Shown: positions 720-57,736 of the stretch, piece after piece
Layout: every line of letters begins with the position of its first letter
Position numbering within the stretch: the first letter of the stretch is position 1
Assembly (NCBI RefSeq): GCF_000003815.2
Contig: NW_023365758.1
Span: 488,679 to 552,678 of the forward strand
Reading direction: 5' to 3'
Length of the DNA: 64,000 nt
DNA from: Branchiostoma floridae
Lineage: Eukaryota; Chordata; Leptocardii; Amphioxiformes; Branchiostomatidae
The notes under the pieces: generated by a model
What the model was told of the DNA's origin: nothing
Database searches by the model: none
Seen by the model: only the letters and a program-made list of their open reading frames with translations
Translations under genes and position numbers: made by a program

Positions 720-864
720 TTGCCGGTTTATGGTGCTTCTGATGTGTTGAATTGTCTTGAAAATGACGTCAATGAAGGAAATATCGTGATACTCCGACAA
801 ACACGCCCTTTGCAAACTGACCTGTTCTTCTGTGGAGGTCGAAGGTCAAAGGTTTCATACCTGA
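720..864 (-). promoter_or_regulatory. Inverted, orphan copy of the ZNF first exon/promoter module
   Basis: Read on the minus strand, this follows the first exons of the plus-strand genes: TCAGGTAT at the start, TTTGACCTTCGACCT, an AGGTCAG half-site, TTGTCGGAGTATCACG, TTTTCAAGACAATTC and a final CCGGCAA followed by GTAAAA as donor (GT at 719-718). The YY1-like CCGCCATTTT is replaced by unrelated bases. It would drive transcription leftward, out of the window. It may be the first exon of a divergent gene beyond the left edge, or a dead promoter. Confidence 0.65.
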
Positions 865-1048
865 TAATCCCATATTGCTGATAACAATATAAGGCCCCTC
901 AAGGCCCCACAATATAAACTAATGCAATGAAAACAATTTCTTTTGAAAAGCTGCCAAAAGCTCCTAAGTAAAGGAGTCTTTTGCACTCAACCTTGCAAAT
1001 GTACACCGTGGAACATAGTGTATCATTCCTACATGATATGACATGATT

Positions 1049-1295
1049 TTTTTTATATGAATGAATGAATGAACTTTATTGAGCGACATTTGTACATGGT
1101 ACAATTGTACGGCAACAGTAACAAGTCAATTAACATAATGATACTCGTCTAAGGTCTATAACTACATACGTGTATAGTATAGGAATGTGAACATAAATGA
1201 CGTATTGACATAGTCGGTCTGTTACTGTTAGCAATATGAACGTTACATCAGTTAGGCATGAAAGGAATGTAGAAGGACTGCTACTTCAATATTCT
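1049..1295 (-). mobile_element. LINE 3'-end fragment (TTTATTG... family)
   Basis: A run of ATGA repeats (about 1056-1071) precedes AACTTTATTGAGCGAC, TTGTACATGG and GGCAACA. The same order occurs at 15350-15420 next to recognisable LINE reverse-transcriptase C-terminal sequence, and at 28510-28560. I infer a minus-strand, heavily 5'-truncated copy of one LINE family with an ATGA tail. The flanking 865-1048 shows nothing recognisable. Confidence 0.5.
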
Positions 1296-1372
1296 ACAGT
1301 GTAAGTTGATTTTATCCCAATTTTACAAACAACCTTGTCCTTCCAGACCACAAGAAGATTGCTTGCATTAGT

Positions 1373-1540
1373 CAGGTATGTCAACTTTGACCTTCAACCT
1401 TTATAGCGCTCCAAGGGTCAGCTCTGTCCGCCATTTTGATTTGTCGGAGTGTCACGCACACGGTTTCTTTGTCTCCAGTTTGAGGCCGTTTTCAAGACAA
1501 TTCAAGATTTCAGCACATCATCAGCCCCACAAACCCATAG
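1373..1540 (+). promoter_or_regulatory. ZNF-1 first exon/promoter module
   Basis: Contains the shared order of motifs: TCAGGTATGTCAACTTTGACC, an AGGGTCA half-site, CCGCCATTTT (1428-1437, YY1-like), TTGTCGGAGTGTCACGCAC, CTCCAGTTTGAGGCC, TTTTCAAGACAATTC and a terminal CCATAG followed by GTAAGA. The donor at 1541 and the matching acceptor before the ZNF-1 ATG make this a non-coding exon 1. The transcription start inside the module cannot be placed from sequence alone. Confidence 0.75.
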
Positions 1541-2362
1541 GTAAGAAATTCAATTACAGCCTGTCCGCTATTCGTCTGCTTTTTATGTATACTTTAGGTT
1601 TATTTCGGGTAGACTAATCGATTTCTAAGTGGAGGGGGGGGGGGATAATTTTCACAACGTATGTGGGGGAACTAAAGAGCATATGTGCTTTAAAAAGCAC
1701 ATATGAGCAAAGAACCAGGATACAAGTACTAGTAGAAATACATGACAAAGAACCACCTTCCAGAGAACCGCACCTTGCCTATATCAAGCGGTGAAATAGA
1801 CGCAAAACAACAACAACAACATTATCGATCATAAATGAAACATGTATTAGCATTAACACTGCCAAGTTTTCATAACTCTTTTAATCAAACAATCCCGAAT
1901 CATTTATGGGGGGGGGGGGGGTCCTTCAATTTTTTGTGGGTACAAATTGCTGCATGTGTTATATGCATGCCAGTGTCTGTGTGTGTTTCTGCGTACTAGT
2001 ATATGTTATGTGTTTTACTAAAGTGCGAGCGCGTGTGTGTATTTTCCCTCTGTGTGTGTATGTGTATATATGCTTGTACATGTGTGCATTTATGTACACT
2101 AGTGCGTCTGTGCGTGTATGTGTGTGGGCATGAATGTGTGTCTGCGTGCAATGCATGTGTTTGTGTGCGTGCGTGTGTGAACGTGTGTTCTGGCATGTCT
2201 GCGTGTGTACGTGTGTATGAGATCTATAATACTTTACGCATCATGTTGTATTTTATCTGCATCTGCATCTGCATCTGCACTACTAATGAAAGCAGATACA
2301 AATAGAATGGGACTGTTCCATGTCTTATGACAATTCTTTGATGATTTATCATTTTATTGCAG
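1541..2362 (+). other. ZNF-1 intron 1
   Basis: Begins GTAAGA and ends in TTTTATTGCAG. Holds a run of 14 G (1908-1921), a GT-rich microsatellite (about 1968-2212) and TCTGCA repeats (2260-2279). Short open frames over the GT tract exist on both strands and are low-complexity. Confidence 0.7.
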
Positions 2363-6070: not shown

Positions 6071-6374
6071 GATATTGTCCGGATATGGGCCATTCCCACA
6101 CAGCAACGCTGGTGTGGAGTGTTTTGACTGAACTTTTTCAAGATATTGTCCGGATATGGACCTATCCCAAACTGCACCGCTGGGGTGGAGTGTTTTGACT
6201 GAACTTTGTTCAAGATATTGTCCGGATATGGACCTATCCCAAACTGCACCGCTGGGGTGGAGTGTTTTGACTGAACTTTATTCATAATATTGTCCGGATA
6301 TGGACCTATCCCAAACTGCACCGCTGGGGTGGAGTGTTTTGACTGAACTTTGTTCAAGATATTGTCCGGATATG
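6071..6374. repeat. Internal ~72-bp tandem repeats, about 4 copies
   Basis: Each unit begins near GATATTGTCCGGATATGG, continues with CAAACTGCACCGCTGGGG and ends TTTTGACTGAACTTT. The first copy is diverged; the next three are almost identical. Lies in the CACTG transposon and shares its TCCGGATAT motif. Long open frames on the minus strand here are repeat artefacts. Confidence 0.85.
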
Positions 6375-7974: not shown

Positions 7975-8147
7975 TCAGGTATGTCAACTTTGACCTTCGA
8001 CCTTCGTAGCGCGACAAGGGTCGACTTGCCTGTCCGCCATTTTTATTTTGTCGGAGTGTCACGCACACGGTTTCTTTGTCTTCAGTTTGAGGCCATTTTG
8101 AAGACAATTCAAGATTTCAACTATTAGTCAGCCCCACAAACCCATAG
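7975..8147 (+). promoter_or_regulatory. ZNF-2 first exon/promoter module
   Basis: Full module: TCAACTTTGACCTTCGACCT, YY1-like CCGCCATTTT at 8034-8043, TTGTCGGAGTGTCACGCAC, and CCATAG before a GTAAGA donor at 8148. Nearly identical to the ZNF-3 copy (11565-11737), including more than 100 bp of upstream sequence. Confidence 0.75.
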
Positions 8148-8847
8148 GTAAGACATTGTTTAGTAGTGAGACATTGTTTACAGCCTTTCCACTCTTCGTA
8201 CGCTAATCATTTGTCCTTTATTTCCGGAAGACAGTGATCGATTTCTAAGTGGAAGAAGGGAGAGGGGATCTGGAGGACTAAAAAAACATTCTCAAAACAT
8301 GTATGAGTAAAGTACCAGGATACAAGTTCAGGCATTAGTAAAGATACAGAGCATTTTCTAGCCGTTAGATAGAAGAACAGCAAAAGCATGATAAAAATGT
8401 AACATTGACAAGGAATGATAAGGTCATATTTTAATAACTCGTTGAATCAAACAAGCCAAGAGCATGAGTCCTTGGGGAAGAGTCTTTTAAAATCGTTCGT
8501 AACGATTTTTTCACGTGTGTTTATGTGTGTGTGAGTGTCTCCCTGTCTGTGTGTACTAGTGTATTTATTTGTGTGTGCGCGTGTGTGTGCGTATGCTTGT
8601 GTGTGTATGTATGTATGTATTTTAATATATGTCTGTGTATATGAGCTTGTGTTTTTGCATGTCTTCGTGTGTTACGCGTGTGTGTGATCTAGCGATTCTA
8701 GGACACTTAATATAACACGGTGTATTTTCTGCATTACTAATCAAGGCGATTACAAATAGTATGGGCTGTTTGATTTGATTTGATTTGTTTATTCGGCTGT
8801 TCCCTGTCTATATATAGTATAAATGGAAGATTTATTGTTGTTTTCAG
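8148..8847 (+). other. ZNF-2 intron 1
   Basis: GTAAGA donor; TTGTTTTCAG acceptor at 8846-8847. Contains a GT-rich tract (about 8512-8682) and a short TTTGA repeat (about 8768-8790) missing from the ZNF-3 intron. Confidence 0.7.
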
Positions 8848-9035
8848 AAATGGACGAGAGAATCACCGATACTGTAATGGACGATCTGTCAGCTACCCTC
8901 CCTTACGACTAGGCAAGCAGCATTGAGAAATCAGACACGGGAAGGCAGCAAGACAACAAATGGGACATTCCATGCGAGGACAAGTGCGGAGAAGAATCTG
9001 ACCATCCTCCCACGGGTCGAACGGAGCAGACTGAT

Positions 9036-11564: not shown

Positions 11565-11737
11565 TCAGGTATGTCAACTTTGACCTTCGACCTTCACAGC
11601 GCGACAGGGGTCAACTTGCCTGTCCGCCATTTTTATTTTGTCGGAGTGTCACGCACACGGTTTCTTTGTCTCCAGTTTGAGGCCATTTTCAAGACAATTC
11701 AAGATTTCAACTATTAGTCAGCCCCACAAACCCATAG
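11565..11737 (+). promoter_or_regulatory. ZNF-3 first exon/promoter module
   Basis: Full module with TTTGACCTTCGACCT, CCGCCATTTT at 11624-11633, and CCATAG before GTAAGA (donor 11738). Nearly identical to the ZNF-2 module. Confidence 0.75.
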
Positions 11738-12166
11738 GTAAGACATTGTTTACAGCATTTCCACTCTTCGTATGCTAATCATTTGTCCTTTATTTCCGGA
11801 AGACAGTGATCGATTTCTATTAGTGGAAGTGATGGATCTGGAGGACTAAAAAACATTCTCAAAACATGTATGAGTAAAGTACCAGGATGCAAGTTCAGGC
11901 ATTAGTAAAGATACAGAGCATTTTCTAGCCGTTAGATAGAAGAACAGCAAAAGCATGATAAAAATGTAACATTGACAAGGAATGATAAGGTCATATTTTG
12001 ATAACTCGTTGAATCAAACAATCCCAGAGCATGAGTCCTTGTGGGAGGGTCTTTTAAAATCGTTCGTAACGATTTTTTCACGTGTGTTTATGTGTGTGTG
12101 AGTGTCTCCCTGTCTGTGTGTACTAGTGTATTTATTTGTGTGTGCTTGTGTGTGTGTGCGTATGCT

Positions 12167-17169: not shown

Positions 17170-18615
17170 TCCACTATACCGTCTGACGCACCCCGCTGTC
17201 CAACAACGAATTCTCTACACGATTGTCCAACAATCTCACCACACCGTCCACCGGTGCCGTTGTTCAACAGCGAGTACAATATACAACCATGTACTGCACC
17301 CCACCGTCCGACGGTGCCGCTGTCCAACAGCAAATACAACATACAGTCATATACTGCACCACCCCCTCCAACGGTGCCACTGTCCAACCGCAAATACCAC
17401 ATACAACAAAGTACTGTACCACACCGTCCAACGGTGCCGCTGTCCGACAGCGAATACAACATGCAACCATGTACTTGTACTACACCGTCCAACGGTGCCG
17501 CTGTCCAACGGCGAATACAACATACAACCATGTATGTACTGTACCACACCGTCCGGCGGTGCCGCTGTCCAACAGCGAATACAACATACAACCATGTACT
17601 GTACTACACCGTCCGACGGTGTCCGCTGTCCAACAGCGAATACAACATACAACCATGTATGTACTGTACCACACCGTCCTACAGTGCTGCTGTCCGACAG
17701 CGAATACAACATACAACCATGTACTATACCACACCGTCCAACGGTGCCGCTGTCCAACAGGAATACAACATACAGTCATATACTGCGCCACACCGTCCGG
17801 CGGCCACGCTGTCCGACAGCAAATGCAATATACAACAAAGTACTGTACCACACCGTTCAACGGTGCCCGCTGTCTGACAGCAAATACAATATGCAACNNN
17901 NNNNNNNNNNNNNNNNNNNNNNNNNNNNNNNNNNNNNNNNNNNNNNNNNNNNNNNNNNNNNNNNNNNNNNNNNNNNNNNNNNNNNNNNNNNNNNNNNNNN
18001 NNNNNNNNNNNNNNNNNNNNNNNNNNNNNNNNNNNNNNNNNNNNNNNNNNNNNNNNNNNNNNNNNNNNNNNNNNNNNNNNNNNNNNNNNNNNNNNNNNNN
18101 NNNNNNNNNNNNNNNNNNNNNNNNNNNNNNNNNNNNNNNNNNNNNNNNNNNNNNNNNNNNNNNNNNNNNNNNNNNNNNNNNNNNNNNNNNNNNNNNNNNN
18201 NNNNNNNNNNNNNNNNNNNNNNNNNNNNNNNNNNNNNNNNNNNNNNNNNNNNNNNNNNNNNNNNNNNNNNNNNNNNNNNNNNNNNNNNNNNNNNNNNNNN
18301 NNNNNNNNNNNNNNNNNNNNNNNNNNNNNNNNNNNNNNNNCCGTCCGACGGGGTCTCGTGGTCAACAGCAAATACAATATACACAAATTACTGTACCACA
18401 CCGTCCGACGGTGCCGCTGTCCGACAGCCAATACAATATACAACAATTGCTGTACCAAACCGTTCGACGGTGCCGCTGTCCGACAGCAAATACAATATAC
18501 ACAAATTACTGTACCACACCGTCCGACGGTGCTGCTGTCCGACAGCGAATACAATATACAACAATTACTTTATTACGTCAACCGACGGTGCCGTTGTTCG
18601 ACGGCGAATTCTAAC
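17170..18615. repeat. Minisatellite, ~61-bp unit of paired near-palindromes
   Basis: More than ten visible units on the left of the gap and about four on the right. Each has ACCGTCCGACGGT followed at once by GCTGTCCGACAGC, then AAATACAATATACAAC and TACTGTACCAC. Both 13-mers are palindromic around a CCG centre, so each unit can form two short hairpins. No stop codons fall in the consensus in several frames, which creates spurious frames of up to about 600 codons. An assembly gap interrupts it. Confidence 0.9.
17898..18340. other. Assembly gap (N) inside the minisatellite
   Basis: 443 unspecified bases flanked on both sides by the same tandem unit, so the true array length is unknown. Confidence 1.
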
Positions 18616-20595: not shown

Positions 20596-20766
20596 TCAGG
20601 TATATCAACTTTGACCCTCGACCTCTACAGCGCCAATAGGTCAGTCTGCCTGTCCGCCATTTTGACTTGTTGGGGTGTCATAGCACGATTCCTTTGTGTC
20701 CAGTTTTGGAGCATTTTTCAAGACATATCAACATTTCAGCAATTAATCGGCACCATAAACCGGCAG
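20596..20766 (+). promoter_or_regulatory. ZNF-4 first exon/promoter module
   Basis: TCAGGTATATCAACTTTGACC, a TAGGTCAG half-site, CCGCCATTTT at 20654-20663, TTCAAGACATATC and CCGGCAG before GTAAGA (donor 20767). Just upstream, 20380-20440 shares a repeat with 39600-39710 (CAGCCCACTGACCCAGTTAC here). Confidence 0.75.
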
Positions 20767-21272
20767 GTAAGACATTTGTGTACAGCCTGTAGCCTGTCCA
20801 CTCTTCGTCTGGTTATTATTTTGTAACAAAGGTTTAGAAAAAAAAAGGTTCATTTTTGGAAGACTGATCGATTTTCGAAAGGGGAGGGGGGCATAATTTT
20901 CACGACGTATAGGGCTGTGTACCCAAAACCCGTACCTGTACCGTACCTGTAAAATCATTAAGGTACAGGTCCGGACCTAAACATCTGTGTAACTGTACCT
21001 AAGCAAACTGTGCGTGTGTGCGTGTGTGCATGTATGCGCATGCATGTATGAATGTGTGTGTACATGCATACATGTGTGTGTGTTTGTGTATATGTTTTTG
21101 TATATGAGCGTTAGCCTCTACCAGGCTACTCCCCTAGCGTACTGTAGTCTCTATTTGTCCAATTTCTACAATTAGACCACCGATTCACGAAGCCTGGTAG
21201 AGGCTATATGAGCGTGTGATTCTGCATGTCTACGTGTGCATTCAATTATGGATGATTTACTGTTGTTTTCAG
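20767..21272 (+). other. ZNF-4 intron 1
   Basis: Shortest intron of the cluster (506 bp). GT-rich tract at about 21008-21100 and a 95-bp MITE at 21112-21206. Acceptor TGTTGTTTTCAG at 21262-21272. Confidence 0.7.
21112..21206. mobile_element. MULE-like MITE, 95 bp, with 9-bp target duplication
   Basis: Perfect 16-bp terminal inverted repeats TAGCCTCTACCAGGCT, flanked directly by TATGAGCGT at 21103-21111 and 21207-21215. A 9-bp duplication with short inverted repeats is typical of Mutator-like elements. Too short to encode anything. Confidence 0.8.
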
Positions 21273-25989: not shown

Positions 25990-26160
25990 TCAGGTATATC
26001 AACTTTGACCCTCGATCCCCCCAAGCGCACAAAGGTCAGTTTGCCAGTCCGCCATTTTGAATTGTCGGAGCAACACGCACACGATTCCTTTGCTCCAGTT
26101 TGAGGCTGTTTTCAGGACAATTCGACACTTCAACGATAAATCAGCACCAAAAAACGAAAG
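25990..26160 (+). promoter_or_regulatory. ZNF-5 first exon/promoter module
   Basis: TCAGGTATATCAACTTTGACC, an AAAGGTCAG half-site, CCGCCATTTT at 26049-26058, TTGCTCCAGTTTGAGGC, ACAATTCGACACTTC, ending GAAAG before GTAAAA (donor 26161). Sequence before the TA-element insertion (24889-24980) matches that upstream of ZNF-8 (41948-42050). Confidence 0.75.
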
Positions 26161-26915
26161 GTAAAACATTTGCCAACCTCTTGTCCGTTCTTCGTCCGAC
26201 AATTCTTTATTTTCTTTACTAGACCAGAAGTCGTATTTTTTCTAGGGAGAGGGGGGCATGAAATTATTTGCGATGTAATTTATTTTGAGCGAGGCTATCG
26301 ACACATGTACGGGAGCCCTTATATACAAAATCTTTAAACCATTGACACACCGGGATGCCAGCCAATTAGAGCTGGTCATATGGGTAAGGTTATGCCGTTT
26401 ATGTCTCACGAATATGTAAATGAGAGACAGAAAATGAGAAGAATGATGCCAAAGACAATTAGTATAGAGTTACAGGACTTTGGAAGTAGTTTGTGTTGTA
26501 CGTGAGATAACAACTGTATAGTCCTTTTATTTTAAAAATCCTGCCCGATGACTAGTTGCACTTACAGTCTCGACGTCATATAGTAACATGACATGGCACT
26601 AGTTTCTAATCGTAATTGTTGTTTCTAATTAACTGCAACGTACTGCATTTACTATTGTTGAGTTTGACTTCTCCGAAGGCAGTGGTTAAAGAACTGTCCC
26701 ACGTTCTGGAAAATAAGTGGGGTTTTTGTGATTTTGACAAAAACGTAGTCTTTTGGTAAGTAAGTACTAGTAAATAAGTAGTGCCTCTGTGACTTGAATT
26801 GTCCTTAAATCGTAAAAGCTCAATGGCAACAGTTTGAAACTTTGAACCATTCTTTATGTCTCGTAGTGAGGACATCGACTTATAAAATGTAATTCACTTT
26901 CCACTGCATTATTAG
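26161..26915 (+). other. ZNF-5 intron 1
   Basis: Lacks the GT-rich tract seen in most of the other introns. The acceptor is CATTATTAG (AG at 26914-26915) instead of the usual TTTTCAG, and the exon begins CAATGG instead of AAATGG. Confidence 0.6.
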
Positions 26916-29644: not shown

Positions 29645-29819
29645 TCAGGTATACAAACTCTGACCTTTGAGGTCAGCGGAAGAAATTGTCATTTTCCAGA
29701 AGGGAGTGTCCGCCATTTTGATTTATCGGAGTATCATATTCATCATATTCCGTCTCCAGTTTCGGCATTATCAAGACAATTCACCACATCAGAAATTCAA
29801 CAGCATTGCAGACTGACAG
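29645..29819 (+). promoter_or_regulatory. ZNF-6 first exon/promoter module
   Basis: The most diverged plus-strand module that still keeps the YY1-like site: TCAGGTATACAAACTCTGACC, TTTGAGGTCAGCGG, CCGCCATTTT at 29710-29719, TTATCGGAGTATCA, TATCAAGACAATTC, and CTGACAG before GTAAAA (donor 29820). Confidence 0.7.
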
Positions 29820-31145
29820 GTAAAACGTTTTTAATCGCTTGCGTTAATTCTAGGTCTGCTAATTACTTAAGAAACGGCTAAGAAACGGGAAAGCGGATTG
29901 GGCTAATTGTGTAGAGGAGGGGCGCTTTTTTTTTAAATTTTTTTTTTAAATTTATTTATTGTATTTTCAATTATTTACACACAGGGGGGGGGGGGCGCTT
30001 TACGATGTAAACATCGGACATCGACAAGGAGTAGCGATTCAAATCAGTAGCATAAATGGTTATTATGGATTATGTGGATTATGATTTTGATTTGTCTGCC
30101 GTCTTTCATGTTTCATTTGTACTTATGTGTTCCGATGTCTTTGTCTATTTATTTTCTTTGTAATAAGCTTTTATTTCATTGTATTGTGAAACTGGGCGCT
30201 ATTGAAAATCATTTTGTTTAAACTGAATAGGCTGCCCAGGCGTTTCAAAATAAACAAACAAACAAATATCTTGATATGTGATGTTTAGGCTAATGGTGGT
30301 AGATATTGATGTTTTCTAAGGTTGGTAGATATTGATATGTGATGCATAGAATTGGACATAGGTATCGATATGTGATATTAGATATTATGACATATTATAT
30401 TAGATATGATATGATGGTATACGTGATACTATTGAACTGCTATATAATACTAATTGATATTGGTTGTTTTATTGTCAACGCCACAAGTGAGATCGAAAGA
30501 AAGAGGAAATAAAGAAAGGTACGTATTATATTGTGTAGTCAAGTCACGTTTTTCGCACAACTATTGCATAAGAAACAATGTATGGCAAATATCAAATACT
30601 ACGAACAACCACATACTATCTAAATGTACATTTGTGTACTAAATCTAAAATCATTGCTCAATTGAAAATTAACAACATTTTCAATATTTCTCTACTTGTT
30701 TGTGGTGATATTATATGGTCAATGATATTTTCCTTTCATCATCATCATTATAATGATAATGTTCATGCCCGCCCGTAGGCTAAAAGCACAAAGGACCATA
30801 TGTGGTCTAATGGATAAAAAGGAAGAACTAATACAGAAAATTCAAACCGAATTGGATGAAAAACGAGCTAAAACATCATGTATTTATGTAGAATATATCA
30901 TAAACTATTGTTAACCGCTAAATCTAATGTATTCTTCTTTCTTTTTAAAACACGTGGAGACATACTGTGTTAATCGCATGATCATTCCTGCATTACATCA
31001 AGTATTATAATAAGGGCATATTGTCAGATTGGTCCAGGACAACGAGGCAGGTATAGATAATGGCATGACAAGGTATAAATAAAAGTGGACATATTAATTG
31101 TTTCTCTTCAATGTTGCATGATTCGTTTTGTTAACTCGTTCTCAG
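29820..31145 (+). other. ZNF-6 intron 1
   Basis: 1.33 kb, longest of the cluster. No GT tract; T-rich and G-run low-complexity sequence at 29925-29996 and repeats of TTGATATGTGATG at about 30270-30400. Similar GATATTGATATGT repeats lie downstream of the gene. Acceptor CGTTCTCAG at 31145. Confidence 0.6.
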
Positions 31146-33630: not shown

Positions 33631-33840
<210 letters not shown>

Positions 33841-35023: not shown

Positions 35024-35190
35024 TCAGGCATATCAACTTTGACCTTCGACCTCCATAGCGTAGAAAGGTCAGTTTGGCTGTCCGCCATTTTGGTTTGTCT
35101 GAGTATCACGATTCCTTTGTAGTCCCTTGTGTCTCCAGTTTTCAAGACAATCCGACAATTCAGCAATTAATTAGAACCACAAACCAGAAG
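35024..35190 (+). promoter_or_regulatory. ZNF-7 first exon/promoter module
   Basis: TCAGGCATATCAACTTTGACC then TTCGACCTCC, an AAAGGTCAG half-site, CCGCCATTTT at 35082-35091, TTGTCTGAGTATCACG, TCAAGACAATCC, and CCAGAAG before GTAAAA (donor 35191). Confidence 0.7.
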
Positions 35191-35837
35191 GTAAAACATT
35201 TGACATCTATCTGTCTGATCTTCGTCTAGTAGTTATTTATTTTCTTTACTTGTAGTTGTAGTTGTATTTTTTCTGATTATTCTCTACTACTACTCAGAGT
35301 ACTACGGAGAAATCTGTTCTGTTCTTTATGCGATTTTGACTGTATAATAAAACTACAGTTCAATTTACGTTTTGTGGACGACAAAGGTAACAGAATGAAC
35401 CCCAGCTAGGTATCAATCGTTACCTGTACTACGTAAACATCTGTTGAGTTTCTTACTGATAGCAAGGACGTTACGTTGATGTAACGTCCTTGGTGATAGT
35501 GGGCACAGATTTTGAAGGGTTTCAGAGCCAAAATATTCTCCGCACTGGTAGTCTCAGCACTCGGTTTCCAATGCCGATAGGTCAGGTATTCCAGTGCTGA
35601 AGCTCACTAAACAATGGACTTGCAGTGCAGACATCCACTTCAGGTGTTAAAAAGCTAAGAGAGGAACCCGGTTTTAATTTTAATTTTTTTTTTACTAAAT
35701 TGTCATTCAGGGTGTGAGCATACCATGATTATGTTTGTGTGTGCGCGCGCGCGCGTGTGTGTGTGTTCGTGCGCGCGCGTAAGTGTGCATGTGGGTATTT
35801 CCTATCTTTTAATTTCGTATGATTTATTGTTGAATAG
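35191..35837 (+). other. ZNF-7 intron 1
   Basis: GT/GC-rich tract at about 35733-35790. The acceptor is GTTGAATAG (35836-35837). The usual AAATGGGTGAGAGAAGCG that starts the coding exon elsewhere is missing, so a short deletion removed the normal start. Confidence 0.6.
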
Positions 35838-38457: not shown

Positions 38458-38771
38458 TTTTGTATTGTGTATGTATTGATATAACGCTCTCTTGTCGTTT
38501 CTTCTCACTGACATTTATTCATACATTGCATCAAATGTTTTTGATCAATTCAATGCATGGTTATCATATTATGACAATTTACAACACATTGAATAATAAA
38601 ACCAACTGTAATATTTAAAACAGATGTTACTGCTGTAATAGACTGATGGAAAACTGCTGTAATAGACTGATGATTCTTCTGGTGGAAAATGCCTGGTTAT
38701 TATTATTTATCACCCAAATATTGATATGACGCTCTCTTGTTGTTTCTTCTCACTCAAACTTTTTAAATATA

Positions 38772-38901
38772 CAGTAGAATCTGCTTAATTGCACGGCCTA
38801 TTTGCCAGTAAATTTGGTGCAATTATCCGGCTGGTGATTTGGGATTCTGGGATTCCGTGCAGTGTGCGTTAATCCGATGTGCAATTAACTGGCTTTAACT
38901 G
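38772..38901. mobile_element. pogo-like MITE, 130 bp, opposite orientation
   Basis: Starts CAGTAGAATCTGCTTAATTG and ends AATTAACTGGCTTTAACTG, flanked by TA on both sides (38770-38771, 38902-38903). It is an inverted relative of the MITE at 38284, with about 310 bp between them. Its duplicate falls in the 61149-61501 gap. Confidence 0.65.
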
Positions 38902-41900
38902 TATTGAGTCAAACTTTTTTGTCAATCAATTAAGGCATGGTTATAACAGTATGACGATTTCCATTACATTGCAAAATAAGATAAACTGTTCTCTTAAACT
39001 CACAAAGTTTCTTGCAAGACCTTTTCTTGCTGGCTATGCATGTTATTACGATAAATACAGTGAATAGATTATAGTACTAGTATACAATATGAGTGTGCGT
39101 TTACGGGTAAGTACATTCAACCGCCCAATGAATTAATAATTCAATTACTCAATTAGTCGATCATTTCTGAAAATTCCACTAATCAGAGTCTGTTGAGAAT
39201 ATATAGGAAATGTGTCTGGCTGGTTGATTGTTAAAATTTTAGAACGACTTAGAGTCCATTCCAAGTCACCATGTGGTTTTTTAGGAGATATTTGTAATAA
39301 GTCTGAATTATTTTGAATAAAAGAATATCTAAGCCACAATAATAAAATTCTTTAAAAAAATTGACTAAGGAAATACTCATTTATTTGAATTCCTTTGAAT
39401 ATTTTAGAAACATTTTGAAAGTAAATGTACAAAAATATCTTTATTTAGAATAATTGTGAAACCTCTGTGTGATTCTTTCATAATTACAAATATTTACAAA
39501 TATTTGTAAACTTTGCCAAATGGTAAAATTAGTTTATTGTCCCCATAAAAAGTGAGCCCTATTGTTGCCTCTGTATATTTTTAGATTTCACTACTGGGCA
39601 CTGCAAGATCCTTTGTGGTGGGCCATTGTTGCATGACACCCAACCATACTTTGTAAGGATGTGTGAATTGCTATCTTCCTGGCCCACTGACCCATTTACA
39701 AAATGTTATAAAAAATGCTAGAAAATGGTAAACAGTGGTAGAATGCTGTTATCATTATTTAGAAACCATTAGAAGTATCCAAATTCACATCATGATTATT
39801 TCCAAAGTTTTACAGGACCGGGGAAGTATTTATAAAGTTGAAACAATGTTAACAAGAGTCGGAAAACTCAAACCTGCTTGAAATATTTTGTTTTGTGATG
39901 GTGCGTATGGTGTGTTGTGGGGGTTGATATGGTTTGACGTTTGACAAAATTATTCCATCATTGTTCTTAAGTTATATATCTACCTATGGTAAACAGTGAG
40001 ATCCAAAACTACACCTTTCTGGTGTCCTCACCATTTCATTTTTATTTCCTATTGTTACACCTGCACCTGGCACATACATTGTATCTCAATGTGTATATAA
40101 TGGTTCACACCATACAGAGGTGACAGCGATGGTCACAGTTGCTCTTTTTTGCTCCTTGGAAGATTTTGACCAGAATGCCCCAGCAGTTCTAGAGCAAGCT
40201 GCTAGAGGGCCCAAACATACAACACTTCTTCCTTACACCACAAGCTATGTGCCACCAAAAATCAAGACCATAGCATATCCATGTCAAAAGATACAAAAAT
40301 CCAAGTTCTGTTGCAGTACCAAGGTCACACACCAGGGAATCCAAAATTGACTTTGACCTTCTTCTTCCAAACACCTACCCAAATACCAAATATCATTACA
40401 ATCCATCAACAGGTTCTAAAGTTATGCTGACCACAAATATGTGGAAACACAAACAGACACACACACAGACACACCAAAAACTATACCTCCATTTTTCATG
40501 GAGGTAAATCACACGTTCTGTTCTGGAGATATAGCACTGGAAACGACCCTTCCACACACTCCCATGCTACTGAAAACTCAAAACACATGTTACAGCTGCT
40601 AGCTGTCCCCAAGGTGGTTGAGACAGAGGGAATGAGGCCAGATCACTCCATATCAGGAAAAGGGGTGTAAATATTTAAAAAAAACGAACCACAAAACAAC
40701 AGCAAACTTCTAATCTACTTAATAGCACTTTAGGTCACACACTCTATCCCCATAGCAAAGGAAATCGCAATCCATCCAGAGGTTCTAGAGATATCGGTCC
40801 GGAATCACAAAGATCCCTACCAGAAACAGTACATGCTTTTTTCAAGCATGTAAAAATATTTGTGAAGTATCAAATGTCCTAGACATATAATGACAAACTT
40901 TAAAATTAATTCTGAACAATGGCAACAAACATCCGCATGGTGACTTGGAATATACAATAGTTAGTAATTCCGGACTGGTATGCCATCGATGTTGGGTAGG
41001 GGACTGTTACACTTGCACAGCTTTACTAGAGACCCATGGCGCCTGACGAGTACTTATATACATAAGCTTGTCCTCGCTATAAAACGGTATATCTGATACC
41101 ATATAGTGTACTCGAGGTATGCTACGATATGGTATCATGCCGAAAGAGCGTGTTACTGTCGGTATTACTGGAATACCCTGCAGTGGAACAGTGTCGTTGT
41201 AAGTTTGAATCTGCCGCCTTTAGTTTTAGATTAGCATAAGTTACTTCCCGCCACTAGTACCCCACTAGCCTGGTTACCAAACCCCAGCCCGATCTCAAAT
41301 ATCTATCGTGCAGGGGTCTGGCCGGATGGGATAGGCCGGCTTCTCAATTTTACCCCTTATAGTGGGCAAAAAAACTCCACCAGTAGAACAGCAGCAGGAT
41401 CAGCAGGAGGTAATACACCCCTACCATGATTGGTTAAAGACTCCCAACTGTATTTTTTGAATCCATAACAGTGGCCACTAAGTACCTCTCGATCACGGGC
41501 CGAACACAATACCACTGTACTACGCGGTCCCAAGACCTCACGAACAAGAGCTCACCTTGGAGTATATACAAGAACTGAGGAGTACCACAGGAACTCAACC
41601 CCAGGAGTAAATTCACCCATCAAGAAAGAAGCAAGAATTCACTGAGGACACAACTAAGGACTCACTCAAGAAGATTCAGAGAAAGGGACAAAACCAGAAC
41701 TTTCCAGTTTAGTTTGGCGGCCTTTTGTACAACTACTAACACTGCTTAATTAAACTATCAAAACGAATAAGTCAGCGAGTGCGTATCGTCCCACTCAAGA
41801 CTTCTCAGCAAAGACAAGGTGAGTTCAGTTAAAACATTTTCTAGACCCCGACCTAGCTGAAGCGCTGAGAGTCAAGGCACTAACAGTCGTCCTTCCATAC

Positions 41901-42099: not shown

Positions 42100-42275
42100 T
42101 CAGGTGTATCAACTTTTACCCTCGACCTCACCAGCACAGGAATGCAGACAGGTGAGTTTGCCCCTCCGCCATTTTGGTTTCTCGGAGATTCACTAACGAC
42201 AACTTTGCTCCAGTTTGAGGCCAGTTTCAAGACAATTCGACATTTCAACGCTATATCAGCACCACAAACCTGAAG
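42100..42275 (+). promoter_or_regulatory. ZNF-8 first exon/promoter module
   Basis: TCAGGTGTATCAACTTTTACC, CTCGACCTCACC, CCGCCATTTT at 42166-42175, TTGCTCCAGTTTGAGGCC, TTTCAAGACAATTCGAC, and CCTGAAG before GTAAAA (donor 42276). The first receptor-like half-site has lost its G (TTTTACC). Confidence 0.75.
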
Positions 42276-42334
42276 GTAAAATATTTGCCAACCTCTTGTC
42301 CGTTCTTCGTCTGATATATATATATATCTATATA

Positions 42335-45830: not shown

Positions 45831-45969
45831 TTGAAAGGTCAGTTTGCCTGGCAGCCATTGTTGTTTGTCGGAGTGTAACGTACGTGTATACGACTACTTT
45901 GCTCCAGTTTGAGACCACTTTCAAGACAATTTGACACTTCAGCGATGAATCAGCATCACAAACCGGAAG
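45831..45969 (+). promoter_or_regulatory. ZNF-9 first exon/promoter module, altered 5' part
   Basis: Keeps AAAGGTCAGTTTGCC, TTGTCGGAGTGTAACG, CTCCAGTTTGAGACC, TTTCAAGACAATTTGAC and CCGGAAG before GTAAAA (donor 45970). The YY1-like site has become GCAGCCATTG and the upstream TCAACTTTGACC block is replaced. ZNF-10 and ZNF-11 share these changes. Confidence 0.7.
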
Positions 45970-46880
45970 GTAAAACTTTTTTCACCTAATTTACGTTCTT
46001 CGTCTGATAATCCTTAATTTTCTTTTACCAGAAACCGTATTCTTCTAAGGCGAGAGGGCCATGACGATGTAATTAGTATGTGACCGGAGGCGGTAACATC
46101 CGGCGACAGACTACTACTTGTAGTACTAGTGTTGCTTTTGTCCACGTAGCGCGTTGGCATTTGTATCTGTATGTTCCCGTTGTCGCATTCGTATGTACTT
46201 TGGTATGTCCTCTGCACATTTTTCGCGATGATGAACATTTTTCGCGGTAGCTGTTTTTATTATCGATGTAAACATTTCAGAAATCATCCCTGTATTTGAT
46301 ATCTAGTAGAACAGGTCATGTGGTGTGGGCCTTAGTAATTACATTATCTCCAAGCAGATATGATGTTCTCTAATGTTGAACAACTGTTAACATTTTGCGG
46401 CCGGGAGAGGAATCCCTTACAGCTGTTAGACTCTAGCTTCGAATTCCTAGCTCATTTCTTTGGTTATCAGTGCCAGTGTTTTAGTTAACAGGTACATACT
46501 TTGTTCTGGTAAGCTATCAGTATTATTAGGGCTTCGTTTTCTTTCCTATTTGTCTGTCTGTAACTGTCCATATCACCGGCATAAAATACATTATGTTGTT
46601 GCAACTGACGTGGCGGAACCATAAATTCGTCAAAAAGTACTAATATGTTATAATTATCTACGGCCATTTTATCTACGGTTTATTATCTGTCTGTACCCTT
46701 GCAATTAGCCTACGGGCATGGATTTGCACATAAATACAAGAATGTAAATGCATAAATGTATTATTCGGGAACGAGTGACTACATGGGCTAATACATATAA
46801 TTGTGTGTGTGAGTACGTTTCCGTGTGTGTCTACCAGTATTTCTTCTCGTTTAGTTTCGGATATTTTATTGTTGTTTTAG
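45970..46880 (+). other. ZNF-9 intron 1
   Basis: Closely similar to the introns of ZNF-10 and ZNF-11. Includes a MITE-like half-end (TATCTCCAAGCAGATATG near 46346) and a short GT tract (46802-46830). Acceptor GTTGTTTTAG at 46880. Confidence 0.7.
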
Positions 46881-46882
46881 AA

Positions 46883-50359: not shown

Positions 50360-52330
50360 GGGAAGGGGGTCATTTTCTAGGTGCAGGTTTGTGGGGCTGA
50401 TTTGTGGCTGGTGGCTTTTGGCTCCTCAGTGGGCAGGGGCGCCGCTCCCTGACCGCCGTGTTGTTGTGTGGCGGCGAGTACCCGTAGACTTGGTTGAGGT
50501 TTAGTGGCTGGCACGGAGGGCATTTTTAAATGCCTCCAAGTTTTTCGCCTGAGCTATATGTTCTGGGAGGGCATTCCATTCGCGAGCTGTTTTGATGTAG
50601 AAAGAGTTTCGGTGGTAGTCAGTTCTAGATGGAGGAATTCGAAAGGCAAGGCTGTTCTCTGTGCGGGTGGGTCTCAGGTGATCCTTGGTGGACAGTGGCA
50701 TGTCGGAAGAGACAAGTTTGTTTTGGATTTTATAAAACATATGAAGTCGTGCTTCTTGTCTCCTCTCTGCCAGTGTGGACCAGTCAAGTGAGTTGAGCAT
50801 GTTAGACACGCTTGACTGCCTGCGGTAGCGGTGGAGAACAAAACGTGCGGCTCGTCTTTGTACGGCCTCTAGGGTTTTGATGTTGTTGTGGGTGTAGGGA
50901 TCCCATACCGTCTGGCAGTACTCCAATATAGGACGTACCAAGGTTTGATATGCACGGGCTTTGATATGGGGGTTTGAAACATTGATGTTTCGTTTCAAGA
51001 AGTTCAGTGTGTTGGTAGATTTTGTTGACACTTGATCAATGTGTTGGTCCCATCTTAAGTCTTCTGTTATTGTAACACCAAGGTACTTGACACAGCTGAC
51101 GTGCTTTAGTATGTATAGTCAAACACGATGGGGGTTTTCTTTCTGGAGATGGTAAGAACCTCACATTTGTTTGGATGGAATTCCATCATCCACTTGTCTT
51201 CCCAGTGGGTCAGAGTGTCAAGGTCTGCCTGGAGTTTTTGGACATCATCCAGACAGGAAATGGTCATGTAAATTATAGTGTCATCCGCGAAAAGGCGTGT
51301 GGTGGACTGTAGGTTTTCGGCTATGTCATTTATGTAGTACAAAAACAAACATGGTCCGAGCACCGAGCCCTGAGGGACGCCTGAGATCACATCAAGTTTA
51401 CTTGACATGCAACCCTCAACAACGACTGACTGTGTTCGTTTGTAAAGAAAGTCCTCGATCCAGTCTCTTGTTTCTGGCTCTACTCCATACCACTGCAGCT
51501 TCCTGATCAGGCGTTTATGACCAACCTTATCGAAGGCTTTAGAGAAGTCGAGTACACAGACGTCCGTCTGGAGGCCATTATGCATGTTAGTGTTGACTTC
51601 ATGAACAAATTTAAGAAGTTGCGTCTCACAAGATCTTCCAGGTCTAAAGCCATTTTGTAGTTTGTAGAACAGATCGTGTTGTTCGGCATGTTTCATCAAA
51701 CTACTACAGATGATGTGTTCCATGATCTTTGAGCATATACAGGTAAGGCTGATTGGTCTGTAGTTAGCCTTGTCGTACCTCTGGCCCTTTTTAAATATGG
51801 GAGCAACATTTGCATGTTTCCAATCATCCGGTACAGTTCTTTCTTTAAGGGATTTCTGGAATATGCGTGTCAGAGGGTCTGCAACTTCGTTACAAAGTTC
51901 TTTTAGGATGCGGGGGCTTATGCCGTCAGGGCCACAGGCTTTTGCTGGGTTGAGCTTCTGCAGTAGTTTCAGTACTCCAAGCCGGGTGATGTTGATCCTT
52001 GGCATAGGTTTTGTCTTTCTGCCTCGTCGATTTGGTATGTTTGGAGTTTCTCTGGTGAATACTGACTGAAACTGTGCGTTCAGGATCTCCGCCTTTGGCT
52101 GTGGGTCTGTGACAAGTTTCCCATGGTCTTTCAGCGGTGCGATCCCTGAGTGGTCAGTGCGCTGGTACTTTATGAATTTCCAGAACCTCTTCATGCTGTT
52201 AAAGATTTCGCTGTTCTCGTTGTTTTCAGGAGTGATGGTCTCTTCAACATATTGCCAGTACGCCCTCCGCAGGTCACGTTGAACTTCTCTTTTCAGTTTT
52301 TGGAACTTGGCCTCATCAGAAAGTCGCCCA
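50360..52330 (-). mobile_element. 5'-truncated CR1/L2/Jockey-type LINE, ~1.97 kb
   Basis: Minus-strand non-LTR retrotransposon with reverse transcriptase, cut at its 5' end near 52330. The uninserted equivalents lie after ZNF-8 (about 45440-45480) and ZNF-10 (about 56770-56820); a few bases were lost at the junction and no clear target duplication is visible. No endonuclease domain is present, as expected from 5' truncation. Confidence 0.85.
50501..52330 (-). pseudogene. LINE reverse transcriptase, 5'-truncated and frameshifted
   Basis: Reading leftward: RLSDEAKFQKLKREVQ at the truncated start, NYRPISLTCICSKIMEH, the FSKAFDKVGH block, SGVPQGSVLGP and the catalytic LFADDTIIY (the D-D pair of the active site). 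Near 51107 the frame shifts (after VFDYTY) and continues as KHVSCVKYLGVTITEDLRW, then TAREWNALPEHIAQAKN and a stop at 50501. The single frameshift and missing N-terminus mean it cannot make a working protein. Family: CR1/L2/Jockey superfamily of LINEs. Confidence 0.9.
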
Positions 52331-53625
52331 GTTTATTGTACCGGTAGTACGCCATTATTTCTATTTCATTTATTGGTTAAGCTAATTCAGCACGCACAGC
52401 CAGGGCTACTCAACCTGGCTGTGGCTATTACATAGGGCTGGCCATGCTGACCAAACAGGGACAATACAAATGGAATTGAACACGGACAGGACACTAACAA
52501 TATTCTAGATACATAAAAATATAGAAATAAGAATAAAAATGACTATACAAGGCCTAAGATAGCACACGTAGTGTCTATAATAGAACATATAACATAACAT
52601 GGTCTGTATATACACGTGTATAACTACATTTGTATTCGTAAGGGTCGCCGGCATTCCCAGACTGGCCATAGATATTCTTTTAATCATTATAATGCCTTTA
52701 GATATAAACGTCTTTCCTTTATTAGCAGATCCCACCCGGCCATCTCAGGCAGATGGACAAACGAAAAAGACAACAATACAAAAGCACTTTTGAAATAGTT
52801 GTTTGGCAGGCTTAAACGCCAGGTCGTTATCATACTCATAGGTTAAAACGGTGTAGGGTATTCATGTATATCAACCATGACCTTCGACCTCCACAGCGCA
52901 CAAATGAAGATATCAGTACACAGTTTTTCGCCTTTGGGGATTTATATGGTTAAGGACCCCAAAGTCAGGAGGTTCGACGCCTAAAAATTCATTGCAAGGT
53001 GCAGAAATATTTTAAAAGAATTTAGTATGTTGAAGTTCAGTGTACGATGTAGAAAATATCTGAAAATGAGCATGGCTTTGCCGGCTCGTTTCTTTGTAAT
53101 AGTTTCCTATCCACACTGCGCACTCATTGGTTCATGCTTCATAGGTGATTAAGGTATGGGGAGTAGCCGAAGTCGCGTGGCGAAAGCAGACACTTGAAAT
53201 CTCATGCCTAACGAAGAGGGTGGGTGGGTGGGAAGCCTCTGAGACAAAGACGGTCCTCTCCCAACCCCTGCCCAACCCCAACCAACAGCCTTCCTCCCAA
53301 ACCTTACTGGGTCGCCTTCCCCCGCTCATTGGCGGTGCGGATGAATCCAAAAGAGAGACAAATAGGAGGTCATGAAACTGCAGACGACGAACAGGAAGTG
53401 CCGGTAACAGTATCAAGGCGCAAATTTCCGCTGGCCGAAGAAGCAACGTGATCCAACTTATACAGTATGAACACCGATGTATTCCTCTACCATTTACCAA
53501 AGTTTCCACATCGCTGTTGTGCACGGAAGAATAACTACGGCATTAGCAAGTACTGTGTGGTGCACTTTTTTGACCCGAACTACTTTTGGGGACGGGGTCG
53601 CGGATGAATACTGTGTTATGAGACC
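52331..53625. other. ZNF-9 to ZNF-10 intergenic, with a first-exon remnant
   Basis: 52358-52530 repeats the block seen at 45500 and 56840. At about 52858-52905 a decayed piece of the promoter module remains (GTATATCAACCATGACC, TTCGACCTCCACAGCGC), so an older promoter was displaced. 53100-53470 contains a block shared with 57010-57460 (CGCACTCATTGG, CAGGAAGTGCCGGTAACAG). No gene supported. Confidence 0.5.
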
Positions 53626-53743
53626 TTGAAAGGTCAGTTTGCCTGGCAGCCATTGTTGTTTGTCGGAGTTTCACGTTCGTGAATACAACTACTTCGATCC
53701 AGTTTGAGACCATTCTCAATAAATCAGCACCATAAACCGGAAG
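53626..53743 (+). promoter_or_regulatory. ZNF-10 first exon/promoter module, internally deleted
   Basis: AAAGGTCAGTTTGCCTGGC, GCAGCCATTG (altered YY1-like site), TTGTCGGAGTTTCACG, CAGTTTGAGACCATTCTCA, then straight to ATAAATCAGCACC and CCGGAAG before GTAAAA (donor 53744). About 25 bp containing the usual AAGACAATT...CTTCAGCG is missing. Confidence 0.65.
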
Positions 53744-54692
53744 GTAAAACTTTTTTGTCACCTCATTTACGTTCTTCATCTGATAATTCTTTATTTTGTT
53801 TACCAGAAACCGTATTCTTGACCACTTTTCTAAGGCGAGAGGGACATGGCGATCTAATTAGTTTGTGACCGGAGGGTAACCTCCGATGACAGACTACTAG
53901 TATTGTTTATGTAACGCGTGATACATAATGTCTATGTAACGCGTTCGCGTCTGTATCTATATGTTCCCGTTGTCGCATTCGTATGTACTTTGGTTACAGT
54001 TTGGTATGTCCTCTGCACGAACCTGCACGATGATGCACTTTTTTTCGCGGTAGCTGTTTTTATTATCGATGTAAAAATTTCAGAAATCATCCCGTATTTG
54101 TTATCTAGTAGAACAGGTCATGTGGTGTGGGGGCTTAGTAATCAGATTATCTCCAAGCAGATATGATGTTCTTTAATGTTGAACAACTGTTAACATTTTG
54201 CGGCCGGGAGAGGAATCCCTTAACAGCTGTAAGACTCTGGCTTCGAAATCGTACCACATTTCTTTGGTGATCAGTGCCAATGTTATAGTAAACAAGAACA
54301 TACTTTGTCCCGGTAAGCTATCAGTAATATTAGGGCTTCATTTTTTTGTTGTTTATCACTATTTGTCTGTCTGTAACTGTCCATATCATCGGCATAATAT
54401 ATATCATGTTGTTGCAACTGATGCGGGGTAACCATAAATTCGTCAAAAAGCACTACTATGTTATAATTATCTACGGCCATTTTATCTACGGTTTACTATC
54501 TGTCTGTACCCTTGCAATTAGCCTACGGGCATGGATTTGCACACAAATACAAGAATGTAAATGCATAAATGTATTTTTTGGGAACGAGTGAGTACATGGG
54601 CTAATACATATACTTGTGTGTGTGAGTACGTTTGCGGTGTGTCTACCAGTGTTTCTTCTCGTTTAATTTCGGATGTTTTATTGTTATTTTAG
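53744..54692 (+). other. ZNF-10 intron 1
   Basis: Close match to the ZNF-9 and ZNF-11 introns, with a short GT tract (54614-54645). Acceptor GTTATTTTAG at 54692. Confidence 0.7.
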
Positions 54693-54694
54693 AA

Positions 54695-55921: not shown

Positions 55922-56235
55922 CGCAACGTTCAGTGAGTGTAGGTACAGAACGGCTGTAATCCATGATCGTTTATGGTAAATATGACAAACCATTTACGTG
56001 TAAGCAGTGTGACTAAATACACCGAAACACAACAATACCGTGTGTAAACAGACACAGGACGAGACACACTATACATGTGACTATAGTGTGTATATAATAA
56101 TCCATATGATAATAAGTACTTAAGTATCCAGCCTCGTACAAAAATACAGTTGTAGACGTAAAACAAAAATGTGATCGGTGCGTCTATTCTGCTTCAAGTA
56201 AAAGTAGTTTACACTTACACGTGGCCGAGCCTGTA
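55922..56235 (+). pseudogene. Fossil fingers after the ZNF-10 stop
   Basis: CGCAACGTTCAGTGAGTGTA, CCATTTACGTGTAAGCAG with TGTGACTAAATACACC, and a D-class relic at 56168-56235 (TGTGATCGGTGCGTCTATTC ... CACTTACACGTGGCC). Homologous to the relics after ZNF-8 and ZNF-9. Confidence 0.65.
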
Positions 56236-56540
56236 AACTACCCAACCCTACATGTGCGGTATGCCCATCTCATCACTGAACCTTGATAGTTGTTGTTGCA
56301 AACATGAATATTGAATGACTCCATTTGAGGACAATATTCTGTATCCAACATTGTATTTTTGCTGTAATAAGAAGTTGATACTCTTAGATAACAATGCTAG
56401 GAAGTGGTAACTTGATAACTTGCCAAACGTAGATATAGTACTGACCGTTATTGAGTTTATTCTTATGTTATTTCATGCACGTGGAAACGTGGTCATATTT
56501 CATGCATTGTTTTAACATTATTATTCACATCACGTAGAAA

Positions 56541-56546
56541 AATAAA
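56541..56546 (+). terminator. Probable poly(A) signal of ZNF-10
   Basis: AATAAA in the block CACATCACGTAGAAAAATA shared with ZNF-8. Confidence 0.45.
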
Positions 56547-57598
56547 GTTATACTTTCAAAGCGGCTGCGAAGGTCTTCTCTTGCTGATTATACATGGCAT
56601 TTCTCTCTATATGCACGTTATAAATGATAGTATCCAACTTGAATGTACGCTCACGAGTACATAATTCAATCAATTAATCAGTCGGTCATTTCGGATAATA
56701 TTTGATAAACTTTCTCAGCTAATTTTCCACTGATATTAAATTCATTGTTGTTAGTATCAAAGTTTTTAGGAGTCCATAGTTTAAACTATCAGGAGTAATT
56801 AGACCAGTAGTCTGGTCATTATTTCTATTCTATTTATTGGTTTATATTAGATGTTCGGCACGCACAGCCAGGGCTGCCCAACTAGCCTGTGGCTATTACA
56901 TAGGGCTGGCCTTGCAGATAAAACATAGGCAATACAAACGGAATTGGACAAGGACAGGATACTTAACAGTAACAATATTCTAAATACATAAGAATATAGA
57001 AAATAGTTTCCTATCCACACTGCGCACTCATTGGATCATCCTTCATATGTGATTAAGTGATGGGGATAGCGCCGAAGTCGCGCGGCGAAGCTGGGACCCT
57101 TGCCAGATGTTGACAAATATAAAAAAGGGTGGGTGGATGGGTGAGAGGGTGTTTTTTTCTCTTCATTTTTCTGATAGATCCCCTTCTCGGAAAAACCCCG
57201 TTTCCCACCGAATCTCCCTCAAGCTGTTACTTCCTGGGTCGATCGCGACCTCACCACGCTCCTCGGCGTTGCGGATGGATCCCACAAAGAGGCCCTTGTA
57301 CTTACATTGTACTTTGTAATAGACACTTTGATTAGACCCCCAGCGTAGGTCATAGAACTGCAGACGACGCGCAGGAAGTGCCGGTAACAGTATCAAGGCG
57401 CAAATTCCTTCCGGCCGAAGAAGCAACGTAATCCAACTTATACAGTATCAACACCGATGTATTCCTCTACCATTTACCACAGTTTCCACCCTGCTGTTGT
57501 GCACGTAAGAATAACTACGGCCTTTGCAAGTACTGTGGTGCACTATTTTGACCCGAACCACTTTTGGTGTCGCGGATAAATACTGTGTTATGAGACCT
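56547..57598. other. ZNF-10 to ZNF-11 intergenic sequence
   Basis: Duplicated-unit sequence (56640-56990) followed by the block shared with 53100-53470. The minus-strand frames of the two copies share a short similar stretch (ICALILLPALP), which reflects the repeat. No gene supported. Confidence 0.5.
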
Positions 57599-57736
57599 TG
57601 AAAGGTCAGTTTGCCTGGCAGCCATTGTTGTTTGTCGGAGTGTAACGTACGTGTACACGACTACTTTGCTCCAGTTTGAGACCATTTTCAAGACAATTTG
57701 ACACTTCAGCGATAAATCAGCACCTCAAACCGGAAG
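57599..57736 (+). promoter_or_regulatory. ZNF-11 first exon/promoter module
   Basis: AAAGGTCAGTTTGCCTGGC, GCAGCCATTG, TTGTCGGAGTGTAACG, CTCCAGTTTGAGACC, TTTTCAAGACAATTTGAC, and CCGGAAG before GTAAAA (donor 57737). Lacks the ZNF-10 deletion. Confidence 0.7.

Follow-up and report, generated by a model that had tools for sequence, protein, structure and literature searches.

Zinc-finger genes and their upstream module

The DNA analysed here is a stretch of 64,000 nucleotides from the amphioxus Branchiostoma floridae (hereafter the window; C200:488679-552678, where C200 denotes contig NW_023365758.1). It contains eleven C2H2 zinc-finger genes, ZNF-1 to ZNF-11, all on the forward strand and with a single coding exon (exon 2) apiece. 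Each gene is preceded by a copy of a non-coding module of ~170 bp, which has a splice donor at its 3′-end and in many copies carries a candidate direct repeat of two half-sites spaced by one nucleotide (DR1) near its 5′-end. From the comparison of its copies, we consider it highly probable that the module is the ancestral core promoter and non-coding first exon (exon 1) of one zinc-finger family, duplicated together with the genes and held by purifying selection.

A profile (nhmmer) built from the 12 longer window copies recovers eleven forward modules, an inverted copy at 864-716 and a 5′ fragment at 52862-52906 that was never part of the profile. These are the eleven forward copies, inverted copy and remnant of the initial annotation, all of which were recovered. 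The 12 longer copies were still found at E ≤ 1.2e-19 with their own clade removed from the profile (leave-out test), and the 5′ fragment at E-values of 5.5e-6 to 5.8e-5. In the reversed window, which served as a decoy, the best match of the full profile had an E-value of 0.99. The copies are as follows, in window coordinates:

716..864, minus strand: inverted module, putative promoter and first exon of a ZNF gene left of the window; nhmmer E 3.1e-30, left out 9.5e-24
1372..1544, plus strand: ZNF-1 module; exon 1 up to 1540, exon 2 starting at 2363
7975..8151, plus strand: ZNF-2 module; exon 1 up to 8147, exon 2 starting at 8848, with an in-frame stop at codon 21 (8910-8912)
11565..11741, plus strand: ZNF-3 module; exon 1 up to 11737, exon 2 starting at 12394
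20596..20770, plus strand: ZNF-4 module; exon 1 up to 20766, exon 2 starting at 21273
25990..26164, plus strand: ZNF-5 module, the genome-wide query; exon 1 up to 26160, exon 2 starting at 26916
29645..29823, plus strand: ZNF-6 module, divergent; exon 1 up to 29819, exon 2 starting at 31146; E 1.2e-19 left out
35024..35194, plus strand: ZNF-7 module; exon 1 up to 35190, exon 2 starting at 35838, with an in-frame stop after 278 codons (36683-36685)
42100..42279, plus strand: ZNF-8 module; exon 1 up to 42275, exon 2 starting at 43203; near-identical copy at C200:553367-553546
45831..45973, plus strand: split-form module of ZNF-9, lacking the DR1 half, with a TATA-like GATAAATA at -33; exon 1 up to 45969, exon 2 starting at 46881
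52862..52906, plus strand: 5′ half (DR1 part) of the ZNF-10 module; profile positions 1-45, nhmmer E 1.2e-5; ~720 bp upstream of the remainder
53626..53747, plus strand: split-form module of ZNF-10, with an exon 1 deletion; exon 1 up to 53743, exon 2 starting at 54693
57598..57740, plus strand: split-form module of ZNF-11, with a TATA-like GATAAATA at -33; exon 1 up to 57736, exon 2 starting at 59016

Distribution and pairing with zinc-finger genes

The genome searched comprises 513,431,437 bases in 431 contigs, and all counts from this search are lower bounds. The ZNF-5 module yielded at least 59 candidates, of which 40 were scored: 32 on C200, seven at 21.07-21.13 Mb of C8, and one on C15. 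A divergent short-form module used as query gave at least 16 matches, 16/16 of them on C200. Altogether, at least 61 places are known on scaffold C200, in the C8 cluster, and at one C15 gene; 20 of them (12 + 8) are unread. Beyond the window we read 20 pieces of C200, C8 and C12 that amount to 200 kb, followed by a further 8 kb on C200 and 6.5 kb on C15. Modules spanning at least 90 profile positions made up a set of 39 copies (shorter ones were left out), or 38 distinct copies once an identical pair was merged; one later addition each from C200 and C15 raised the total to 41.

A zinc-finger exon 2 of the same family, belonging to the module itself, lies downstream in 39/41 modules read. The two exceptions are an extra module at C200:469523 and a module at C8:21069112 that faces an assembly gap. 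The initial annotation had proposed checking whether the module also precedes unrelated genes, and no such case was found among the 41. The single match outside both clusters, on C15, likewise sits 0.3 kb in front of a family gene. This module and gene (C15:10017930-10017750, with a frame of nearly 300 residues) lie far from the clusters and beside reverse-transcriptase-like frames.

Some stretches of C200 and C8 depart from one module per coding exon. At C200:473165-480106, one module is followed by four exons encoding an N-terminal part and fingers, the last three without a module of their own. The first three exons are each followed by CAG|GTGAGA within the TGEKP linker, a good splice-donor match, and ~0.43-0.72 kb separate each of them from the next. 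A further N-terminal and finger exon without its own module is found at C200:462633. No module was detected within the 6.6 kb read upstream of C8:21117415, where gaps were not checked, and two further candidates at C200:576-579 kb lie downstream of assembly gaps.

The frame opened by the first ATG carries at least five fingers in 26/36 genes read, and part of the family may therefore be decayed or start elsewhere. In three family proteins scanned, Pfam detected no KRAB, SCAN, BTB or ZAD domain, but only C2H2-type fingers and apparently spurious overlaps. No publication title found in our literature searches names this cluster.

Exon structure and sequence constraint

The donor at the end of the module reads GTAAGA or GTAAAA in 11/11 window copies, in agreement with the GTAARA donor of the initial annotation, and exon 2 starts as AG|AAATGG in 29/36 genes. 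ATG becomes scarce past the putative +1, going from 15.7 per kb upstream to 1.7 per kb in exon 1, where CAT occurs at 24.4 per kb. Among the 38 distinct copies, which are related and not independent, exon 1 holds 8 ATGs against 69.7 expected by shuffling; a few copies do therefore hold one. The strand bias and its shift at the putative +1 place the transcribed part and its direction, notwithstanding the kinship of the copies. The frame into the start codon is broken in 7/11 window copies, and exon 1 is thus unlikely to be coding. ZNF-10 was left out of a separate ATG count of the window copies. The information content of the aligned copies is low upstream, increases at GGGGTAATCAGGTATATC (TAATCAGGTAT), shows a dip from DR1 to the putative start, is then high as far as the donor, and declines past it. 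The copies have a common, sharply defined 5′ edge at TCAGGTAT.

At C200:582052-582333, two modules lie back to back with their 5′ (DR1) ends overlapping, each with a YY1 site and a donor-like end and each facing a zinc-finger exon. This pair would represent a natural divergent promoter, which is how a promoter would be expected to behave.

Fifteen pairs of recent duplicates allow the module to be compared with its surroundings. Pooled substitutions were 7/401 in the 5′ promoter part, 110/1956 in exon 1 and 912/8335 in the intron, although the pairs share genes and some intron alignments are gap-rich. The difference was significant (Fisher p<0.05) in 7/15 pairs, and none was significant in the opposite direction. 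The claim that the module is better conserved than the intron was borne out by these figures. Between clades, modules are 68-82% alike and most flanks are near comparison noise, as judged by free-end alignment, whose null is noisy (for upstream flanks a mean of 0.36 and a maximum of 0.60). Some intron starts exceed this null, such as those of ZNF-5 versus ZNF-10 and 11 (0.69-0.70). Among the 150 non-coding matches listed from a self-comparison of the window, those between the promoter sides of different clades start at most ~40 bp from the 5′ edge of the module or inside it, and end at most ~140 bp into the intron. The listed matches also include stretches downstream of coding exons (22844-23461 with 28768-29385, 77%), so that similarity outside the module is not nil.

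Divergence at four-fold sites was compared in 29 genes (368 pairs) after 7/36 genes were dropped for early stops or an unclear start. Module divergence is below that at four-fold sites in 228/368 pairs, and it reaches a plateau near 0.23 where four-fold divergence is 0.53. The trees of modules and of exon 2 agree on several recent groups.

Duplication is also visible outside the modules. A segmental duplication in two blocks (38144-41415 versus 60733-64000, 98.8-98.9%) reaches the end of the window and predicted a further ZNF-8 copy, which was found just beyond it at the position listed above. A lone finger fragment at 33637-33910, between ZNF-6 and ZNF-7, has neither a module nor an N-terminal match. 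Reverse-transcriptase-like open frames on the minus strand at 50501-52332, between ZNF-9 and ZNF-10, presumably derive from a retroelement of the non-LTR type. Tandem repeats occur at 17237-18609 (units of ~60 bp, with an assembly gap inside) and at 6071-6374 (units of ~71 bp).

Displaced copies and the split form

The inverted copy and the remnant had been described as extra orphan copies, which proved to be wrong, as both belong to genes. The inverted copy has a zinc-finger exon 2 downstream at C200:488050-487001 (minus strand), just left of the window. Its gene comprises an N-terminal exon and a finger array on the minus strand; the usual acceptor AG is changed, and the first ATG opens a 348-codon frame with nine fingers (script pattern). 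The inverted module and that of ZNF-1 are arranged head-to-head with ~0.5 kb between them. The supposed independent remnant at 52858 is the displaced 5′ half of ZNF-10's own module, the remainder of which covers profile positions 38-174. The two orphan signals could thus be traced to the edge of the window and to an insertion. A split of the ZNF-10 type with a related spacer recurs at C8:21113355-21114044. The sequence just upstream of ZNF-9, 10, 11 and their relatives is common to them, although a displaced 5′ half could be detected in ZNF-10 and C8:21113355 alone.

A genuine extra copy does exist outside the window at C200:469523-469628 (minus strand), upstream of another module. Its split is a separate one, caused by a minisatellite-like stretch. 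C8:21069112 was rejected as an orphan because it runs into an assembly gap.

The split form comprises ten copies: ZNF-9, 10 and 11, two further copies on C200, and five on C8. A TATA-like box (GATAAATA or close) is present at -32/-33 in 10/10 of them, matching 7/8 letters in four and 6/8 in six. In the non-split copies with an initiator located by script (n=11), the best TATA-like match is at most 5/8; 18/39 copies are unscored, as the script found no initiator in them, though some have one by motif-position count. Because the split is inherited, the TATA-like box represents about one event, and the match may be due to chance (by a rough hand estimate, ~1 in 500).

Sequence motifs

Single motifs are weaker evidence than the profile. 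The initial annotation ascribed the same ordered motifs to every ZNF gene, which holds for CCGCCATTTT in ZNF-1 to ZNF-8 and for the donors, whereas the others are altered or absent in several copies. Exact CCGCCATTTT is found once per gene in ZNF-1 to ZNF-8 and nowhere else in the window, where up to one mismatch gives 13 sites against 3.25 expected. TGACCTTCGACCT is present with 0-1 mismatch in ZNF-1, 2, 3, 4 and 7, with two in ZNF-8, and with three in ZNF-5 and ZNF-6, and was not found at ZNF-9, 10 and 11 with up to four mismatches; matches in the window with at most three mismatches number 26 against 11.1 expected. AGGTCAG is altered in ZNF-1, 2, 3, 6 and 8. Exact TTTTCAAGACAATT is limited to ZNF-1, 3, 11 and the inverted copy, ZNF-10 being deleted there, and a mismatch-tolerant search of the window gave 29 matches against 14.6 expected. 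TTTTCAAGACAATT was rejected as a genome-wide marker of the module, since 9/9 loci read around its exact matches outside the C8 and C200 clusters have no module. With at most one mismatch it has at least 537 forward and at least 474 reverse matches genome-wide, against at least 268 and at least 253 for the reversed pattern.

The consensus contains AGGTCGAAGGTCA on the minus strand, which forms a DR1 (AGGTCG-A-AGGTCA) with one mismatch from AGGTCA-N-AGGTCA. By chance, such a match has a probability of ~8e-4, without correction for the multiple patterns considered. For half-sites in direct or inverted orientation, no other spacing from 0 to 8 fits the consensus with at most one mismatch; an exact everted half-site pair with a spacing of 20 is also present. 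The half-sites in opposite orientations that had been proposed, TGACCT and AGGTCA, are indeed in the consensus, 20 bp apart. The first, however, is part of the DR1, and we read the second, which is absent in five copies, as an initiator. According to a review of such elements, DR1 is the site type of HNF4, RXR and COUP-TF2 dimers, with HNF4 preferring another half-site (CAAAGTCCA-type; PMC10315846). The action of a nuclear receptor at this DR1 is a possibility to which we would give somewhat less than an even chance.

The candidate YY1 site, CAAAATGGCGGA on the minus strand of the consensus, has one mismatch in the 11 specified places of the YY1 consensus. Exact GCCATTTT was counted by script in 21/39 copies, although in one of them (C8_21069112m) a different site was scored, and the inverted copy is without it. 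In 28/39 copies, the distance from the putative +1 A to the downstream GCCAT is 13 nt. Both sequence and position thus fit the YY1 resemblance noted initially, and binding of YY1 at the module appears rather probable. YY1 sites are described as unusual in preferring positions just downstream of the start, where YY1 activates (PMC11269187).

The candidate initiator is GGTCAGTTTG / AAGGTCAG, and GGTCAGTTTG fits the initiator consensus. The claim that AAGGTCAG is in every copy had to be rejected in view of the five that lack the block.

In the mechanism that we propose, RNA polymerase II would start at or near the initiator GGTCA(+1)GTTTG, or near the YY1 site in copies without that block. YY1 would bind CCGCCATTTTG and set the position of this TATA-less start, and the DR1 element just upstream would tune its activity. 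Exon 1 (~110-130 nt and almost free of ATG) would then be spliced from GTAAGA or GTAAAA to exon 2, usually at AG|AAATGG, which holds the whole protein.

Alternative explanations

Several observations weigh against a selected promoter and first exon. No single motif is essential: five short-form copies run from DR1 to YY1 in ~20 bp without the AGGTCAG block, so that the candidate initiator is not universal, the inverted copy has no YY1 site, and in the split form this site is degraded in almost every copy and DR1 is not adjacent either. At least four coding exons lack their own module. The 600 bp upstream of the module are clearly homologous in 8/15 recent-duplicate pairs (and not clearly so in the other seven), with a rate of 0.026-0.088 that is below that of exon 1 in three; the contrast in conservation therefore holds against the intron but not always against the upstream flank. 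In the closest pairs, module divergence (0.065) exceeds four-fold divergence (0.029), for which conversion of exon 2 is one possible cause. The trees conflict in that the ZNF-8 group falls among ZNF-9 to 11 by exon 2 but not by module, and they have only 11/32 and 6/32 well-supported inner branches, with agreement judged without a formal test.

These flanks and closest pairs, the agreement of the trees on recent groups, and the origin of copies by tandem and segmental duplication are what passive hitch-hiking would produce, in which the similarity is left over from duplication and has no regulatory function. We nevertheless think it improbable, as modules stay alike between clades whose flanks are mostly near the noise, the pooled intron rate is about twice that of exon 1, module divergence levels off well below that at four-fold sites, and the avoidance of ATG is strand-specific. 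Concerted evolution by gene conversion, rather than selection, could also keep the modules alike. The start of exon 2 in ZNF-8 is 92-93% alike to those of ZNF-9 to 11, with modules 75-78% alike, which hints at gene conversion of exon 2 or at promoter replacement. Conversion may thus act in the array, though it is seen on exon 2. The modules themselves differ by 18-32% between clades and have clade-specific short, long and split forms, and their information content shifts at functional borders; an account by conversion is accordingly improbable too.

A role of exon 1 as RNA, either as a structured 5′ untranslated region or as a functional non-coding RNA, would accommodate the conserved blocks TTGTCGGAGT, CTCCAGTTTGAGG and TTTTCAAGACAATTC within the presumed transcribed part. 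It is quite improbable given that the consensus fold of nine window copies has an unfavourable covariation term (+0.74) with compensatory change in 0/14 pairs, and that no Rfam family was found in the window at gathering score, nor any tRNA. Finally, a mobile promoter-carrying element inserted repeatedly before these genes might leave the sharp edge at TCAGGTAT as well as inverted, partial and extra copies. However, the 3′ edge of the module is a splice donor, and none of the copies read precedes a gene of another kind (no search for target-site duplications was made). Dispersed copies that are independent of the family were not found among the 40 scored of at least 59 candidates, and the nine TTTTCAAGACAATT loci read outside the clusters lack the module. 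We regard insertion of such an element as very improbable indeed. A core promoter and first exon that duplicate with their genes under selection remain the explanation that we favour.

Possible common control and comparison with known promoters

Expanding zinc-finger arrays are well known. Less often visible is how new zinc-finger copies keep a working promoter, which can here be traced through dozens of copies in one genome. That the same promoter and first exon were kept through repeated duplication suggests a common start signal. The common control of the family proposed in the initial annotation would fit this pattern, but it draws on shared sequence, and shared descent alone would explain the shared motifs. 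We put real co-expression of the family at about even chances. A more extensive scenario is unlikely: the whole family (at least 61 promoter copies) would be under one DR1 and YY1 start module, with one receptor/YY1 input setting the level of the repertoire; one inherited insertion would have rewired the ten-copy subclade, its TATA-like box at -32/-33 replacing the adjacent DR1; and the one module at C200:473-480 kb would face four exons that are perhaps used alternatively. If the module does set common expression, it would give easy access to an entire set of putative DNA-binding proteins. Short, long, split and back-to-back forms constitute a natural mutational series for the start site, and the case would gain weight with proof of common expression or of a switch in the split subclade.

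The human KRAB zinc-finger cluster at 8q24.3 is likewise a clustered family with proximal promoters of common motif content, which are TATA-less (PMC2865497), as we propose for the start in the module. There, the promoters have CpG islands and SP1, ETS and EGR sites without a classical initiator, whereas the B. floridae family has a long alignable module with candidate YY1 and DR1 sites, and no KRAB in the three proteins scanned. In Branchiostoma lanceolatum, cap analysis of gene expression was used to examine the YY1 motif at ubiquitous promoters, and 25% of neighbouring genes are in bidirectional promoters (PMC6292497). A candidate YY1 motif around the putative start and the occurrence of divergent pairs are features in common with our module; unlike those promoters, a ~170 bp stretch with DR1 is here repeated before a whole family, and its putative starts are placed from sequence. 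As a response element, the DR1 with its one mismatch is of the type bound by RXR and COUP-TF2 dimers (PMC10315846), although it is a candidate site, its AGGTCA half-site is not the HNF4-specific CAAAGTCCA-type, and the split form has no start-adjacent DR1. As in human promoters with downstream YY1 sites, the candidate site lies just past the presumed start, in the activating position (PMC11269187), a position that is derived here from sequence and not from transcription data. The module is a clear case of a known arrangement rather than a new kind.

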